DNA of 34,916 nt from Clostridia bacterium (lineage in GTDB: Bacteria; Bacillota; Clostridia; Christensenellales; Aristaeellaceae). The stretch covers positions 1-34,916 of the forward strand of contig JAFQOD010000031.1 in NCBI GenBank assembly GCA_017395685.1, in the 5' to 3' direction. The notes under the pieces were generated by a model. It had not been told where the DNA came from. It saw only the letters and a program-made list of their open reading frames with translations, and did not search any database. The position numbers and the translations under genes are program-made. Below are positions 17,994 to 24,953 of the stretch, piece after piece. Every line of letters starts with the position of its first letter. Position 1 is the first letter of the stretch.

Positions 17994-18022
17994 TTTACAG
18001 CGAATGCATTTTGGGGTATAAT
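17994..18022 (+). promoter_or_regulatory. Sigma-A-type promoter for dnaE operon
   Basis: TTTACA (17994-17999), 17-nt spacer, TATAAT (18017-18022), 36 nt before the dnaE ATG. Confidence 0.85.
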
Positions 18023-18058: not shown

Positions 18059-21000
18059 ATGGCCTTTACCCATTTACATCTGCATACGGAATACAGCCTG
18101 CTGGATGGCGCCTGCAGGATCCGGCATCTGGTGAAGCGGCTGAAGGAGCTGGGAATGGATAGCTGCGCCATCACCGATCATGGGGTGCTCTACGGGGCGG
18201 TGGATTTCTATACCGCCTGCAAGGATGGAGGCATCCATCCCGTCATCGGCTGCGAGGTATACGTCTGTCCCGATATGGAGGATAAGCGGGCCTTCTCCCG
18301 GGAATACAGCCATCTGATTCTGCTGTGCGAAAATGAAGAGGGCTACCGGAACCTGATGTACATGGTCAGCGAAAGCTTCACCCGAGGCTTTTATTATAAG
18401 CCCCGGATCGATTATGCTTTCCTGAAGGATCATCATCAGGGGCTGATCGGCATGTCCGCCTGCCTGTCCGGTGATCTGCCCAAGCTGCTTCTGGAAGGCA
18501 GGGAGCAGGATGCGGAAAAATATGTGCAGGCCATGGTCAATCTTTTCGGGGAGAACAATTTCTTCATCGAAATCATGGATCACGGCCTGACGGAGGAAAA
18601 GCAGGTGCTGCCCCGGCTGGTCAATCTCAGCCGGAAAACCGGGGTGCCCCTGGTGGCCACCAATGACTGCCATTACGAACGCAGGGAGGATGCCGACGCC
18701 CAGGAAGTGCTCATGTGCATCCAGACGGGCAAAACCTTGGAGGATGCCACCCGCATGCGGATGGAAAGCCGGGAATTATATGTAAAATCCGAAGCGGAAA
18801 TGCGCGCCCTCTTCCCCGATTTGCCGGACGCCATTGACCGATCCCACGAAATCGCCCATCGCTGCCATGTAGATTTTGATTTTTCCACCGTCCATCTGCC
18901 CCGGTATGATGTGCCCCAGGGGGAAACATCCCTTTCCATGCTGCGGAAATTATGCGAGGAGGGGCTTGCCCAGCGCTATGCTCCCGATGATCAGGTGGCA
19001 AGGGATCGCCTGGAATACGAGCTTTCCGTCATCTCGAAAATGGGGTATGTGGATTATTTCCTGATCGTATGGGATTTTATCAAATACGCCAAGGATCACG
19101 GCATCATGGTGGGCCCGGGCCGTGGCAGCGGCGCCGGCAGCATCGTGGCCTATTGCCTCAATATCACCATGCTGGATCCCCTGAAATATAATCTGCTCTT
19201 TGAACGCTTTTTAAACCCCGAGCGGGTATCCATGCCGGATATTGACGTGGATTTCTGCTATGAACGGCGGCAGGAAGTGATCGATTACGTTGCCCGGAAA
19301 TACGGATCCGATCACGTATGCCAGATCATCACCTTCGGCACCATGGCCGCCCGGGGCGTGCTCCGGGATGTGGGCCGGGTGCTGGGATATCCTTATGCCG
19401 AAGTGGATCAGGTGGCCAAGGCCGTGCCCATGGCCCTGGATATGACCCTGGAAAAGGCCATGGGGCAGAATAAAGAGCTCCGGGACATGTATGAAAATGA
19501 TGAGCGGGTGCGCCGGCTCATCGATACCGCCAAAACCCTGGAGGGCATGCCCCGCCACGCCTCCACCCATGCGGCGGGCGTGCTGATCACCCGGGAGCCT
19601 GCCACCCATTATGTGCCCCTTCAGAAAAATGATGAAGTGATCACCACCCAGTATCCCATGGGCGTGATTGAAAAGCTGGGGCTGCTTAAAATGGATTTCC
19701 TGGGCCTGCGCAATCTGACCGTCATCCGGGATACCCTGGATATGCTGAAAATGCGGGGCGTCGATATGCGCCCGGAGGATATCCCCATGGATGATCCCGC
19801 CGTATTTGATATGATCGGCCAGGGGGATACGGATGGGGTATTCCAGCTGGAAGGGGGCGGCATGCGTTCTTTTCTCACCAATATGCGCCCCCGGGATTTT
19901 GAGGATATCATCGCCGCCATTTCCCTTTACCGCCCCGGCCCCATGGAATCCATTCCCCGGTACATCCGGGGCAAGCAGCATCCGGAAACGGTGCAGTATA
20001 AAACGCCGCTGCTGGGCCCCATCCTGGATGTCACCTACGGCTGCATGGTGTATCAGGAGCAGGTGATGCAGATCGTGCGGGATCTGGCGGGCTATTCCTA
20101 CGGCCGCAGCGATCTGGTGCGGCGGGCCATGGCCAAAAAGAAAAAGGATGTCATGGCCAAGGAACGGCAGAAATTCGTCTACGGTTCCCAAGAGGAGGGC
20201 ATCCCCGGCGCAGTAGCCAAGGGCATCTCTCCCCAGGTAGCGGAAGAAATCTTTGATGAAATGACCGCCTTCGCTTCCTATGCCTTCAATAAGCCCCATG
20301 CCGCCTGCTATGCCATGGTATCCTTGCAGACCGGCTATCTCAAATGCCATTACCCGGCGGAATTCATGGCGTCGCAGATGAATTCCTTCACCGGCAATGC
20401 CGGAAAAATCGCCGGTTACATCTATTATTGCCGCCAGAAGGGCATCCCCATTCTGCCCCCCCGAATCAATTCCTCCATGCAGAAATTCACCGTGGACCGC
20501 ACAGCGGACGGCCGCCTGGGCATCCGGTTCGGCATGGGCGGGGTGAAAAATGTAGGGGAAAAGGCGGTGGACGCCATCGTCCGGGAACGGCAGGCCCACG
20601 GCCCCTACCGGGATATCTTCGATTTCTGCCGCAGGATCGGCGGCGAGGATGTGAATAAGCGGGCAGTGGAAAGCCTGATCAAGGCGGGCTGCTTTGATGA
20701 GCTGGGGGCCAAGCGGGTGCAGTGCATGGCGGTATACGAAAGCGCCATGGATGCCCAGCAGAATCAGCGCAAGCAGAATGTGCTGGGCCAGGTATCCTTC
20801 TTCGATTTCGGCCAGAGCGGCGAAGATATGCGGATGGAGGAAACCTACCCGCCCCTCAATGAATATCCCCTCCGGGAGCTGCTGGCCCAGGAAAAGGAAA
20901 TGACCGGGGTTTACTGCTCCGCCCATCCCCTGGATGAATATGCCCAGTATCTGAAAAATCTGCCCATGAATACCCAGTATCTGGCGGAGCTTTCCGATCA

Positions 21001-21547
21001 GGAGGATCATGGCATCGATCAGGATGGGGCCCGGGCGGTGATGGGCGGCATCATTGCCGAGGCCCACAGCAAGGCCACCAGGAAAGGAGCCATGATGGGC
21101 TTTATCACCCTGGAGGATCAGACCGGCCAGGTGGAATGCCTGCTTTTCCCCCGGATTTATGAGCGCTACAGCCGGGAAATCGCCGTGGATCAGCCGGTGC
21201 TGGTCACCGGCCGGCTTTCCATCCGGGAGGATGAGGAGCCCAAGCTGATCGTGGATGTGATCGAGCCCCTGGTGGCCCCCAAGGTCCCCGATACCCGCAC
21301 CGACGCCCAAAGGGCCAAGGATGCCAAAACCAAATTATATCTGCGCATCCGCCGGGAACAATTGGCCCGCATCCAGGAAATGTTGATGCGCATGCAGGGG
21401 GATATCCCCGTCTATATCAATATCCCGGCGGAAAAGCTGACGCTGCTTGCCCCCCGGGAAATGTGGGTGGATGATGCCTGGGATGCCCGGGCCACCCTGA
21501 TGAGTGAATTACCCGATCAAGATATGAAAGTGGTGGAAAAAGAATGA
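18059..21547 (+). CDS. dnaE: DNA polymerase III alpha subunit DnaE
   Basis: C-family replicative DNA polymerase, 1162 residues. Order: N-terminal PHP domain (HLHLHTEYSLLDG at about 5-17, AITDHGVLYG), palm with GPGRGSGAGSIVAYC (about 350) and catalytic PDIDVDFCYERR (about 392), fingers, helix-hairpin-helix region and a C-terminal OB-fold (GFITLEDQTGQVECLLFP). This is the DnaE1 layout, not PolC. AAGGAGG lies 8 nt before ATG at 18059; an upstream in-frame codon at 17987 would overlap the promoter. Its stop overlaps the next start (ATGA), tying replication polymerase expression to a signalling cassette, which is unusual. Confidence 0.97.
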   Translation: MAFTHLHLHTEYSLLDGACRIRHLVKRLKELGMDSCAITDHGVLYGAVDFYTACKDGGIHPVIGCEVYVCPDMEDKRAFSREYSHLILLCENEEGYRNLMYMVSESFTRGFYYKPRIDYAFLKDHHQGLIGMSACLSGDLPKLLLEGREQDAEKYVQAMVNLFGENNFFIEIMDHGLTEEKQVLPRLVNLSRKTGVPLVATNDCHYERREDADAQEVLMCIQTGKTLEDATRMRMESRELYVKSEAEMRALFPDLPDAIDRSHEIAHRCHVDFDFSTVHLPRYDVPQGETSLSMLRKLCEEGLAQRYAPDDQVARDRLEYELSVISKMGYVDYFLIVWDFIKYAKDHGIMVGPGRGSGAGSIVAYCLNITMLDPLKYNLLFERFLNPERVSMPDIDVDFCYERRQEVIDYVARKYGSDHVCQIITFGTMAARGVLRDVGRVLGYPYAEVDQVAKAVPMALDMTLEKAMGQNKELRDMYENDERVRRLIDTAKTLEGMPRHASTHAAGVLITREPATHYVPLQKNDEVITTQYPMGVIEKLGLLKMDFLGLRNLTVIRDTLDMLKMRGVDMRPEDIPMDDPAVFDMIGQGDTDGVFQLEGGGMRSFLTNMRPRDFEDIIAAISLYRPGPMESIPRYIRGKQHPETVQYKTPLLGPILDVTYGCMVYQEQVMQIVRDLAGYSYGRSDLVRRAMAKKKKDVMAKERQKFVYGSQEEGIPGAVAKGISPQVAEEIFDEMTAFASYAFNKPHAACYAMVSLQTGYLKCHYPAEFMASQMNSFTGNAGKIAGYIYYCRQKGIPILPPRINSSMQKFTVDRTADGRLGIRFGMGGVKNVGEKAVDAIVRERQAHGPYRDIFDFCRRIGGEDVNKRAVESLIKAGCFDELGAKRVQCMAVYESAMDAQQNQRKQNVLGQVSFFDFGQSGEDMRMEETYPPLNEYPLRELLAQEKEMTGVYCSAHPLDEYAQYLKNLPMNTQYLAELSDQEDHGIDQDGARAVMGGIIAEAHSKATRKGAMMGFITLEDQTGQVECLLFPRIYERYSREIAVDQPVLVTGRLSIREDEEPKLIVDVIEPLVAPKVPDTRTDAQRAKDAKTKLYLRIRREQLARIQEMLMRMQGDIPVYINIPAEKLTLLAPREMWVDDAWDARATLMSELPDQDMKVVEKE

Positions 21548-21921
21548 AATGTATGACGCTGACCGTTCCAGCAAAAAAGGAATGCATTCTGGTCATGCGC
21601 ATGACTGCTGCCGGCGTATGCGCGCTGCATGATCTGCCGGTGGATGTGATGGAGGATCTGCGCACCGCCATCGATGAAAGCTGCGAACTGCTGCTGCATC
21701 AGGATTATGTGGCGGAATCCCTGACATTGTGCTGCGAGGCGAAAAAGGATGGGTTGTATGTCACCATCACCGCCCAGAAGCGCACCTGCCAGCAATGCGA
21801 TGATGCGGCGGACGCGGATATCGCCAAATTGATCATCGGCACCCTGGTGAAAGAAGTTACCCTTCAGCAGGATGAGAGCGGGGTCCACGGCGTGGTTATG
21901 GCGCTGCCCGCCAAGGCATAA
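21544..21921 (+). CDS. Anti-sigma-factor-like protein (degenerate RsbW/SpoIIAB-type fold)
   Basis: 125 residues. The pattern VDVMEDLRTAIDESCELLLHQ resembles the helix of RsbW/SpoIIAB-type GHKL proteins that carries the N-box (normally EACTNAIEH), and the tail TLVKEVTLQQDESGVHGVVMAL looks like the last strands. The conserved Asn is not in place, no DxGxG G1 motif is present, and no glycine-rich lid is seen, so ATP binding or kinase activity is doubtful. Overlaps dnaE by ATGA; its stop shares one base with the sigma-factor start (TAATG). The position directly before a SigB/F-type sigma supports an anti-sigma role; this remains inference. Confidence 0.7.
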   Translation: MKCMTLTVPAKKECILVMRMTAAGVCALHDLPVDVMEDLRTAIDESCELLLHQDYVAESLTLCCEAKKDGLYVTITAQKRTCQQCDDAADADIAKLIIGTLVKEVTLQQDESGVHGVVMALPAKA

Positions 21922-22652
21922 TGGACGCCGCAAGAATGCACGCGACGGCGTGCGCATATTATCAGTCGCCCACGGAGGAAAATCTCAATTCCGCCCTCCA
22001 GGAGGCGCTGCCTTTGTGCGCCCTGATCGCCCGGCGCTTTGCCGGCCGGGGCGTGGAATATGAGGATTTGTATCAGGTGGCGGCCATGGCCTGCGTAACT
22101 GCCCTGAAAAAATTCGATGGGGAGCGGGGCCTGAAATTCACCACCTTCGTAACCCCCACCATTACCGGCACCCTGCGCAATTATCTGCGGGATAAAGCAG
22201 GCCTGCTCCATACCCCCCGGGGCCTGAGAGAGCAGGGCGCGCAGCTGGCCCAGGCCAGGGAAGCCTTCTTGCAACAGCATCATCACGAAGCATCCCCCCG
22301 GGAGCTGGCTGAAATGCTGGGCTGGGAAGTTTCCCAGGTGCTGATGGTGCTCTCTGCTCAGGAGGCAGGCAACGTATCCTCTCTGGATCAGACCGATGAG
22401 GAGGGCCTCACCACCGGAGAGCGTATTCCCTTTATTGAGCAGGGATTTGAAAAATCGGAGCGGCGTCAGGATCTGCTCAAGGCACTGGCCGTCCTGTCCC
22501 ATCAGGAAAAGCTGCTCATCGCCCTGCGCTTTCAGCAGCGCATGAGCCAGCGGGAAGCCGCAAAGGAAATGGGCCTTTCCCAGATGCAGGTATCCCGGAT
22601 GGAGCGGCGTGCGCTGCAGCTGCTGCGTAAAGAAATGGAAGGCAATCTATGA
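21921..22652 (+). CDS. RNA polymerase sigma factor, SigB/SigF/SigG type
   Basis: Alternative sigma-70 factor of 243 residues. Region 2 is ARRFAGRGVEYEDLYQVAAM and FDGERGLKFTTFVTPTITG, with TLRNYLRDK closing 2.4; region 3 contains TPRGLREQGAQLA and SPRELAEMLGWEVSQVL; region 4 is LSHQEKLLIALRFQQRMSQR and GLSQMQVSRMERRALQLL. The latter pattern, SQMQVSR, is typical of the SigB/F/G group controlled by partner-switching anti-sigma factors. Joined to its neighbours by TAATG upstream and ATGA downstream. No anti-anti-sigma gene is seen. Sporulation versus stress role is open. Confidence 0.9.
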   Translation: MDAARMHATACAYYQSPTEENLNSALQEALPLCALIARRFAGRGVEYEDLYQVAAMACVTALKKFDGERGLKFTTFVTPTITGTLRNYLRDKAGLLHTPRGLREQGAQLAQAREAFLQQHHHEASPRELAEMLGWEVSQVLMVLSAQEAGNVSSLDQTDEEGLTTGERIPFIEQGFEKSERRQDLLKALAVLSHQEKLLIALRFQQRMSQREAAKEMGLSQMQVSRMERRALQLLRKEMEGNL

Positions 22653-23527
22653 AAATCCGTCCCCGGCAATTCAATATCCGCAAGGCCGCCGTGTATGCCA
22701 TCATCATCAATGTACTGCAGATGCTGGCCATGGGGGCTTTGGCCGTTTATATCCTTATCGATGGCGTGAATGAGGCGCTTCACGGGCTGATGGGCGATCT
22801 GATCGTGATCACCCTGGTGGTTATCGTCTCCTGGGGCGCCATCGTGGATATCCGGGAGGCCGTGCACGCCGTCAGAATGCAGGTGAAGCTGCACGGGCTG
22901 GATGAAACGGTGCATCAGATGACCGATCTCAATCATGCCCTGCGCTCCCAGCGCCATGATTTCCTCAATCATCTGCAGGTGGTCTATTCCCTCATCGAAA
23001 TGGAAGAATATGAGGAGGCCAATCGCTATATCCAGCAGGTGTACGGCGATATCCAGAGCGTGAGCCGCACCCTGAAAACCGCCTGCGCACCGGTGAATGC
23101 CCTGCTCAGGGCCAAGATTGCCGAAGCGGAACAGCGAAAAATTCAGGTGGATTTATCCGTGCAGGCGGCCTGGAAGGCCCTGCCACTGCCCGCCTGGGAA
23201 ATGTGCCGGGTGCTTTCCAATCTGATCGATAACGCCATGGACGCTCTTGAAAATCAGAAAAGCCCCCGGCTTGCCATCCATCTTTCCGAGGATGTGAAGG
23301 GATTTTCCTTCCAGGTGCGCAATAACGGGCCCATGATCCCTGAGGATATCCAATCCAGCATTTTTGAGCCCGGCTTTTCCGGCAAGGGCGAAGGCCGGGG
23401 CATGGGGCTGCATATCGCCCGGGAAACCCTGCGCAGCGCCGGCGGCGATCTGACGGTGGCAAGCGATGATGCCTTCACCGTCTTTTCCGGCCATGTGCCC
23501 AGGAAATTGCCAGGAAGCGAAGGCTGA
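22649..23527 (+). CDS. Membrane sensor histidine kinase (SpoOB-type H-box, GHKL ATPase)
   Basis: 292 residues with two N-terminal membrane helices (about 15-37 and 48-66) and almost no extracellular part. H-box LRSQRHDFLNHLQVV puts the phosphoacceptor at His103, in the CitA/DcuS/AgrC-like SPOB class. The ATPase has N-box LSNLIDNAMDAL, a G1 variant VRNNGPMIP, F-box IFEPGFSGKGEGRGMGLHI. Its start overlaps the sigma gene by ATGA. The likely partner, a LytTR regulator, is encoded convergently 664 bp away, not adjacent in the same operon. A repeat unit begins on the base after its stop. Confidence 0.92.
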   Translation: MKIRPRQFNIRKAAVYAIIINVLQMLAMGALAVYILIDGVNEALHGLMGDLIVITLVVIVSWGAIVDIREAVHAVRMQVKLHGLDETVHQMTDLNHALRSQRHDFLNHLQVVYSLIEMEEYEEANRYIQQVYGDIQSVSRTLKTACAPVNALLRAKIAEAEQRKIQVDLSVQAAWKALPLPAWEMCRVLSNLIDNAMDALENQKSPRLAIHLSEDVKGFSFQVRNNGPMIPEDIQSSIFEPGFSGKGEGRGMGLHIARETLRSAGGDLTVASDDAFTVFSGHVPRKLPGSEG

Positions 23528-23908
23528 GGAACGAAACGAAGCAAGGGGCTCTGCGCCCCCTGTACCCCGCACCAGAGGATTTCATCCTCTGGACTCCACC
23601 CTGCGAAGAAACGCCTTTTTTCAATCGTTGCTCTTTTCCTCACTAAACGTAAGGAAACGATACGAAGCAGGGGGGCTCTGCACCCCCCTGTACCCCGCAC
23701 CAGAGGATTCCATCCTCTGGACTCCATCCTGCGAAGAAACACCTTTATTCAACCGTTTCTCTTTTCCGCACGAAGCGTAAGGAAACGATACGAAGCAGGG
23801 GGGCTCTGCGCCCCCCTGTACCCCGCACCAGAGGATTTCATCCTCTGGACTCCATCCTGCGAAGAAGCGTCTTTATTCAATCGTTGCTCTTTTCCGCACG
23901 AAACATGA
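23528..23908 (+). repeat. Three tandem 125-128 bp units, each with two hairpins
   Basis: Units at 23528-23652, 23653-23780 and 23781-23908 are nearly identical. Each holds a G-run/C-run hairpin around CTCTGC and a perfect 9 bp hairpin CCAGAGGAT / ATCCTCTGG (23572-23592, 23700-23720, 23828-23848) with a 3-nt loop. Open frames across them are frame shadows of the repeat, not genes. The array starts immediately after the histidine kinase stop. Confidence 0.92.
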
Positions 23909-23939
23909 GGAACGCAACTTATTTTTCCACGGGCTAAGC

Positions 23940-24191: not shown

Positions 24192-24953
24192 TCAGCCGAA
24201 TCGCTTTTCCAGTTCCTCATATTTTTCATGGGTGATCAGGGCGTCATGATCGGTGCCATCCAATTGCACAATATAGGTCCATCGCCCGTAGGGGGTGATA
24301 TGGCGGATATGGCGCAGATTGATGATATAGCTTTTATGACAGCGGAAGAAAAGATCGGGATCCAGCCGTGCCTCCGTTTCCGACAGCGTTTCGGGCAGCA
24401 CGAAGCGGCCCTCCCCCCGGGTATAGAGCACGGTGGCGCGATCCTCCCGCTGCACCAGCAGGATATCCTCCGCATCGATAAAGGTGACCCCTTCCCGATG
24501 CTTGAGCATCATCCGGCCGGTATGGGGCCTTGGGGGATCCATCTTGGGGGCCGGGATTTCCGGGGCCGGGGATTTGATCATGCGGCTGCGGATGCGATCC
24601 AGGGTTTTTTCCAGACGATCCAGCCGGAAGGGCTTCACCAGATAATCAAAGGCATATACCTGGAAAGCCTCTTTCATATATTCCTCATGCCCGGTGGCAA
24701 AGATGAGGATGCAGGCAGGATTCTGATCCTGGATCAGCCGGGCGCATTCCACGCCGGTTTTGCCCGGCATATCCACATCCAGAAACACCACCTGCGGCCT
24801 GCACAGGTCAAACAGCGCCATCGCCTCATCCCCGGTGCAGGCCTCCCCTGCGATCTGAAACCCATCCGTTTTCTGGATTTTTTTCCGCAGGATCAGCCGC
24901 ATCCCCGGATCATCATCGGCAATCAGCACGGAAATGGGGGGGATTTCGCTCAT
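24192..24953 (-). CDS. LytTR-family response regulator
   Basis: 253 residues. Receiver domain (about 5-120) with acidic pocket D13-D15, phosphoacceptor D59 in VVFLDVDMPGKTG, and the Lys of LVKPFRLDRL. A Pro-rich linker leads to a LytTR DNA-binding domain (about 148-250; VTFIDAEDILLVQRED ... RCHKSYIINLRHI). Its ATG overlaps the preceding small membrane-protein gene as ATGA, so it is translated as the last gene of an nfeD-floA operon. The probable kinase partner is the convergent one at 22649-23527, because SPOB-type kinases commonly pair with LytTR or CheY-HTH regulators. Confidence 0.93.
   Translation of the reverse strand: MSEIPPISVLIADDDPGMRLILRKKIQKTDGFQIAGEACTGDEAMALFDLCRPQVVFLDVDMPGKTGVECARLIQDQNPACILIFATGHEEYMKEAFQVYAFDYLVKPFRLDRLEKTLDRIRSRMIKSPAPEIPAPKMDPPRPHTGRMMLKHREGVTFIDAEDILLVQREDRATVLYTRGEGRFVLPETLSETEARLDPDLFFRCHKSYIINLRHIRHITPYGRWTYIVQLDGTDHDALITHEKYEELEKRFG

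Follow-up and report, generated by a model that had tools for sequence, protein, structure and literature searches.

Organization of the dnaE locus

We analysed a 34,916-nucleotide stretch from the genome of a Clostridia bacterium (GenBank assembly GCA_017395685.1, contig JAFQOD010000031.1, positions 1 to 34,916; hereafter the window), in which dnaE, the gene for a DNA polymerase III alpha subunit, is followed on the same strand by genes for a 125-residue RsbW-like protein, a sigma factor of the SigB/F/G type, and a histidine kinase. The order of these four genes and their overlaps, as given in an initial annotation made from the sequence, were confirmed from the open reading frames (ORFs): the dnaE stop and the start of the 125-codon gene share an ATGA, the stop of the latter and the sigma start a TAATG, and the sigma stop and the kinase start a second ATGA. 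The features referred to below are as follows.

17994..18022, + strand: sigma-A-type promoter-like site TTTACA-17-TATAAT, ahead of the putative operon (11/12 consensus bases)
18059..21547, + strand: dnaE, DNA polymerase III alpha subunit, 1162 residues (Pfam, NCBIfam)
21544..21921, + strand: RsbW-like protein, candidate kinase-dead anti-sigma factor, 125 residues (profile match, AlphaFold2 model, N-box Asn absent)
21921..22652, + strand: SigB/F/G-type sigma factor, 243 residues (sigma-70 regions 2, 3 and 4, Pfam)
22649..23527, + strand: histidine kinase with Spo0B-type domain (SPOB_a + HATPase_c, Pfam)
24192..24953, − strand: LytTR response regulator, convergent with the kinase (Pfam)

Against the NCBIfam model PRK06826, DnaE scored 1666 bits (cut-off 1260). 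PolC is encoded elsewhere in the same genome (1523 bits), so that dnaE is one of two replicative-type polymerase genes; the description of its product as the replicative polymerase is to be read with this qualification. Regions 2, 3, and 4 of the sigma factor were all above their Pfam cut-offs, and its best NCBIfam match was SigB/SigF/SigG at 179.1 bits, under the cut-off of 234.35.

Conservation of the block within the genus

The comparison set consisted of 60 genomes, that of the window included, from which the loci of the best sigma matches were taken; five same-genus genomes with no close sigma match were covered by a separate dnaE search. All four genes stand together in 23 of the 29 same-genus genomes (window included). 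One genome (G022) has dnaE, the anti-sigma-like gene, and the sigma gene without the kinase, three (G018, G008, and G026) have dnaE and the kinase without the pair, one (G023) has a dnaE beside which neither unit was found on a contig that stops 118 bases past dnaE, and one (G028) gave no dnaE match. Nine same-genus relatives, eight with the block plus G022, were compared over flanks of 0.2–6.4 kb upstream and 2.9–9.9 kb downstream, and the 30 other ORFs of the window that served as queries found no match there at E ≤ 1e-8 save a single 30% receiver-domain match. Because the block is kept in 23 of 29 genomes while the flanks differ in the nine relatives, its order appears to be conserved beyond chance. 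At one of the nine loci, the sigma query also matched a second sigma gene, 26% identical.

The overlaps are likewise widely available. A 4-base start/stop overlap is possible at the junction of dnaE and the 125-codon gene in 39 of 45 distinct loci (counted by eye from 61 loci, excluding those that repeat a sigma sequence or miss a needed match), and at the junction of sigma and kinase in 21 of the 23 same-genus loci with a kinase (also by eye), the start codon used being unproven in both counts. The block is thus conserved and overlapping, as first annotated, and every sigma gene found behind dnaE in the loci that we looked at was accompanied by the 125-codon gene.

An RsbW-like protein without catalytic residues

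For the 125-residue protein, Pfam gave nothing at E ≤ 1, and the NCBIfam RsbW matches are weak (best 3.6e-8, 33 bits versus a cut-off of 145). A profile built from 18 of its homologues matched the RsbW chain 6m36_A at 1.3e-15, and also matched SpoIIAB-type chains and two chains named anti-sigma-F factor RsbW (8jzt and 8ih8), which we take to be mycobacterial. The relative in locus L042 passes the HATPase_c_2 cut-off (29.7 versus 27.4), and the AlphaFold2 model, with a mean predicted local distance difference test (pLDDT) score of 93.8, has its strands and helices in the order E-H-H-E-E-H-E-E. On the basis of the profile and the model, the protein is predicted to be a homologous version of the GHKL fold of the RsbW/SpoIIAB kinases.

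Four residues are invariant in the 18 aligned homologues, among them Arg19, Asp38, and Glu45, which fall on chain residues 19, 38, and 45 of 6m36_A in the profile alignment. We infer that 6m36 is the Bacillus subtilis structure of PMC7340262, and, with a construct that starts at residue 5, the aligned positions would be Arg23, Asp42, and Glu49 of RsbW, which contact RsbV (PMC7340262). These docking residues are largely retained in a wider set of 56 homologues, this being the number of the 88 loci that yielded an anti-sigma-like ORF (Arg in 47, Asp in 54, and Glu in 52, gaps counted). The catalytic residues are missing: the Asn expected in the N-box, four residues past the Glu, is Leu in the window protein, and this column is never Asn among the 56 homologues (two have gaps and three have an Asn one column earlier). 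The G1 motif D.G.G occurs in none of the 56, and a G2-like motif in six. The gene had been annotated as a degenerate anti-sigma-like gene, and both its homology to RsbW and the lack of the catalytic Asn and G1 motif bear this out.

A second ATPase-like ORF with a Glu-Asn follows the sigma gene in 36 of the 88 loci, most of them STAS-linked, and 35 of the 36 carry a glycine motif; these ORFs were picked by a motif that requires the Asn, which they consequently have by construction, and that does not require the second glycine motif. This suggests a division of binding and phosphorylation between two proteins, as in Mycobacterium smegmatis, in which RsfB was phosphorylated by a single one of the three RsbW homologues, RsbW2 (PMC7693655). 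The 125-residue protein most likely binds and holds the sigma factor, the one line of support for binding or inhibition being its joint presence and absence with the sigma gene.

Origin of the linkage to dnaE

The relatives of the sigma factor were surveyed in two further sets of genomes. The first consisted of its 80 best named relatives and overlaps the other genome sets; the nearest of these belong to assemblies of the Clostridiales, Clostridia, Eubacteriales, Bacillota, and Christensenella type, several of them from rumen, caecum, or rectum. The dnaE gene lies directly upstream of sigma in 21 of the 80, all 21 with the 125-codon gene and 9 with the kinase. Among the 59 without dnaE upstream (two of which, L092 and L104, have less than 1 kb of upstream DNA), 37 have the sigma gene after a STAS gene, 18 have it before HlyD and YggS genes, one being counted in both groups, and 5 fall in neither. 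SepF was matched as well in 17 of the 18 HlyD-YggS loci, and the HlyD, YggS-like, SepF, and DivIVA families were confirmed on L042. One locus (L134:373-5754) carries the full set of STAS, anti-sigma-like, sigma, ATPase, HlyD, YggS, SepF, and DivIVA genes, an order that is perhaps close to the ancestral one.

In the tree of sigma factors, a single change is enough to explain linkage to dnaE, and the 26 linked rows group in one clade with a Shimodaira–Hasegawa-like approximate likelihood ratio test (SH-aLRT) support of 98; our trees were quick builds with SH-aLRT support only, and the sigma tree carries a long-branch warning. In the second set, 77 of 150 genomes drawn from the family of the window have a sigma match at E ≤ 1e-32, and inspection by eye placed sigma beside dnaE in 24 of these and on another contig in 50, with three (G181, G073, and G139) that could not be judged; paralogues may account for some of the 50. 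The initial annotation held that the cassette is tied to dnaE and that unlinked copies in related genomes would speak against this, and such copies are what we found outside a single clade.

The STAS-linked relatives show a sequence feature of their own. Ahead of the STAS gene, 27 of 35 loci (all between L048 and L138, and left from 61 after L104, L134, L137, and loci without a STAS match were dropped) have the SigB-like pattern GTTT-N17/18-[GT][GT]TA[TC]. In 200 base shuffles, the corresponding number of loci was never above 3, and other spacings from 10 to 25 gave only 5 occurrences, for a pattern that was picked after reading the sequences. It is likely to be a SigB-like promoter of the STAS-linked operon. 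In sister genera (L066:8732-11967 and similar loci), other genes stand behind the pair: in L066 they encode an FtsJ/S4 protein, a replication protein with a DnaB_2 domain, and an ATPase resembling DnaC (the last two confirmed by Pfam), and L071 also has a gene for a VTT protein.

The kinase as a separate unit

Both domains of the kinase, SPOB_a and HATPase_c, were above their Pfam cut-offs, and its His103, within QRHDFLNHLQ, its N-box, and its GRGMGL motif are invariant over 13 rows. The N-terminus has two hydrophobic stretches, no sensor domain was recognised in the protein, and the best NCBIfam match was DcuS/MalK (127 bits, under the cut-off of 520). The kinase profile gave only weak partial matches in the rest of the genome.

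The distribution of the kinase differs from that of the pair. Outside the genus, the kinase alone stands behind dnaE in the g34 genomes G061, G132, and G106 and in three of the five from g36 (G107, G133, and G063; a fourth ends too early to judge). Both units are found there in g40 (G067 and G110) and in G190 of g36, and 12 genomes belonging to g44, g54, and g59 have the pair only. With the three same-genus cases, the kinase is therefore kept without sigma in nine genomes, six of them from two other genera. Mapped on a DnaE tree of 55 rows, the kinase required three changes and the pair six, and on a smaller tree two and three; in the larger tree, no branch separates the chosen outgroup from all other rows, and the counts leave out L173 and L233, and genus g7, which has neither unit, is placed differently in the two trees. 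By parsimony, the pair would have been lost jointly at least four times (in g34, in part of g36, in G008 and G026, and in G018) while dnaE and the kinase stayed. Given these joint absences and the retention of the kinase alone, the two genes of the pair behave as one unit, and the kinase travels separately. The four genes had been presented as a single dnaE-anti-sigma-sigma-kinase module, a view that is not supported on this point, as either part is found next to dnaE without the other, and a four-gene signalling module was ruled out as the principal interpretation because kinase and pair come and go independently.

The block contains no response regulator gene. The convergent LytTR regulator was considered as the partner of the kinase; its adjacency to the block is not conserved, in that no LytTR regulator was found near the block in nine relatives, save for the one 30% receiver match. 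Between the kinase and this regulator lie three tandem copies of a 128-bp unit (23530-23912, 90% matches), the 28-base core of which was found exactly in only two of 269 loci (L009 and L187), both representing this place in the window genome. An Rfam search of the window at gathering scores returned no match.

Promoter sites

The only strong promoter-like site of our scan is TTTACA-17-TATAAT ahead of dnaE, and the number of promoter-like sites in the consensus scan was 4, versus 4.3 expected by chance. TTTWCA at a spacing of 17 nucleotides (TTTWCA-17-TATAAT or a near variant) precedes dnaE in all but one of the 13 loci listed from the genus (12), and other sigma-A-like sites precede it in sister genera with sigma. 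A promoter inside dnaE that drives the cassette alone had been named as evidence against joint expression; the consensus scan gave no support for one, and synonymous sites in 13 dnaE genes held no conserved block (the highest window, at 0.131, did not reach the 0.157 set by permutation at 95%), although neither result excludes one. Within the limits of the two approaches, no conserved internal promoter was found.

Candidate antagonists in the genome

No STAS antagonist gene is present at the locus. The window genome has a single STAS match, within a spoIIAA-spoIIAB-sigF set elsewhere (G000:C5), where the SpoIIAA model scores 105.7 versus a cut-off of 114.75 and the general antagonist model passes. 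SigG, SigH, and SpoIIAB are above their cut-offs in this genome, SpoIIAB being its one HATPase_c_2 match above cut-off, and the SigF beside SpoIIAB is very divergent (L181:2686-3339; 100.7 bits versus a cut-off of 321). The search for STAS genes was extended to 32 dnaE-linked genomes, 17 of the kinase clade (g1, g40, and g36, including G022, which itself lacks the kinase) and 15 of the sister genera g44, g47, g54, and g59, in 12 of which the absence of the kinase was looked at. No STAS match was found in 13 of the 15 sister genomes, and 11 of these 13 have a completeness of 90% or more and a contamination of 5% or less.

Favoured explanation and alternatives

The explanation that we favour, and to which we assign a slightly better than even chance, is that the dnaE operon houses a kinase-dead anti-sigma/sigma pair, without a classical release partner at the locus, together with an independent kinase. 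The operon headed by dnaE would thus have taken up two independent regulatory units. The first would be the SigB/F-type sigma factor and the kinase-dead RsbW-like protein that holds it. In relatives, this pair stands after a STAS gene, often with a separate RsbW-type ATPase behind sigma, or before HlyD-YggS-SepF-DivIVA genes, and one move would have set it behind dnaE in the ancestor of the clade, leaving the STAS gene and the ATPase behind. Its expression would now depend on the dnaE promoter and on translational overlap, so that both proteins would be produced alongside DnaE. With no dedicated RsbV-type antagonist, the release of sigma probably takes a different course, through imbalance between the two proteins, through proteolysis, or through a ligand that the anti-sigma factor binds. 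The second unit, the histidine kinase, would have joined the operon separately and may have a role that is independent of sigma, acting with an unlinked response regulator.

Several observations weigh against this explanation. The promoter and terminator scans yielded chance-level numbers of sites, and 23 of the 24 genomes of the genus that carry sigma also carry the kinase, so that a link between kinase and sigma within the genus is possible. All 17 kinase-clade genomes have at least one STAS match, and nine of them two to six; the conservation of the RsbV-contacting residues is also what one would expect if an antagonist were still acting on the protein, as SpoIIAA might in the genus of the window. 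A stand-alone 143-residue frame of the window genome (L141:1489-1914, G000:C48) reaches 23.7 on HATPase_c_2, versus a cut-off of 27.4, and is possibly a second RsbW-type ATPase that could act as a switch kinase. Finally, absences may be gaps, as most of the genomes are incomplete assemblies. By eye, the C48 frame adjoins a ferredoxin-like ORF.

The strongest alternative, which is compatible with the favoured explanation and which we rate at somewhat less than even, is that the pair sits behind dnaE for steady housekeeping expression only, through operon inertia and with no tie to replication. The single origin of the linkage fits this, as do the repeated losses of the pair from loci where dnaE and the kinase stayed linked and the other neighbours of sigma in 59 of the 80 named relatives. 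On the other hand, the retention of the block between the differing flanks of the nine relatives and the frequency of overlapping starts point to selection for expressing the genes jointly.

Two proposals connect the pair to replication, and we consider both unlikely. In that of the initial annotation, the four genes form one replication-linked module in which the kinase or the state of replication controls the release of sigma. The occurrence of all four genes in 23 of 29 same-genus genomes is in line with it, and so are the replication genes that follow the pair in sister genera, namely those for the DnaB_2 protein and DnaC-like ATPase of L066 and DnaB_2-like ORFs seen by eye behind the pair in seven other loci; against it stand the nine genomes with the kinase and without sigma, the sister genera with sigma and without the kinase, the lack of a response regulator in the block, and the 50 of 77 family genomes in which the sigma match is on a different contig from dnaE. 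In the other proposal, a hypothetical replication-linked switch of about the same low probability, the pair would read replication directly: the anti-sigma factor would be made with DnaE and freed by a replication-linked ligand or by changed synthesis of DnaE, which would replace the STAS antagonist. If this were true, the cell would couple an alternative transcription programme to the supply of polymerase.

That SpoIIAA also releases this sigma factor, which would link it to sporulation, is a further and similarly doubtful alternative. SpoIIAA is the only STAS match of the window genome, SigG, SigH, and SpoIIAB are encoded there, and the docking residues are kept in the 125-residue protein, but the 13 sister genomes that have the pair and no STAS match, 11 of them well complete, argue against it. 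Very improbable is a fourth alternative, in which sigma drives its own operon from a SigB-like promoter ahead of dnaE in this genus: the SigB-like site of the STAS-linked operon in a related clade, and a genus dnaE promoter that has TTTWCA and, in 11 of 13 loci, a GG before TATA that by eye occurs in only 3 of 52 TTGACA-17-TATAAT sites of the same genome, are set against a genome-wide pattern count of 10 versus 4 in the reversed control, stricter patterns in just 6 and 10 of 64 upstream regions, the plain sigma-A-like sites of sister genera with sigma, and, as our reason for not favouring it, three same-genus dnaE-kinase genomes without sigma that all keep TTTACA, two of them with the GG before TATA.

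Comparison with known systems

Partner switching is the textbook control of SigB-type factors, and its working parts are an antagonist and a kinase. The RsbV-RsbW-SigB system of B. subtilis shares with the present locus the class of sigma factor, the homology of the anti-sigma protein, and the Arg, Asp, and Glu docking residues, and differs in that the protein described here has neither the catalytic Asn nor the G1 motif and that no RsbV is encoded at the locus. The SpoIIAA-SpoIIAB-SigF system consists of homologous proteins with the same order of anti-sigma factor and then sigma factor; however, the window genome has its own spoIIAA-spoIIAB-sigF set. A further parallel is the RsbW1-SigF pair of M. 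smegmatis, which likewise combines an RsbW homologue without kinase activity with a co-transcribed sigma factor of the SigB/F type (PMC7693655), and of which UsfX-SigF is the counterpart in a relative of that species. In M. smegmatis, the STAS antagonists RsfA and RsfB release the sigma factor, whereas no antagonist gene is present at the locus described here, and the pair described here, unlike that of M. smegmatis, sits in a dnaE operon. The kinase resembles DcuS/MalK-like kinases in its SPOB_a and HATPase_c domains and differs from them in having no recognised sensor domain and no adjacent conserved response regulator.

In dnaG-sigA, one operon likewise joins the gene for a sigma factor to a gene of replication (PMC2824700). 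This macromolecular synthesis operon combines primase with the primary sigma factor, whereas here a DNA polymerase gene is combined with an alternative sigma factor and its putative anti-sigma factor. We recognised no description, in the openly licensed literature, of dnaE with this anti-sigma/sigma pair or of the pair beside sepF. Neither the antagonist nor the switch kinase is present at the locus, yet the anti-sigma-like and sigma genes persist together and vanish together, which makes them a testable case of how a sigma/anti-sigma pair works without the switch and raises the question of how the sigma factor is activated. The stable place of the pair behind dnaE also adds a second case to that of dnaG-sigA, in which a replication gene has a sigma factor linked to it.

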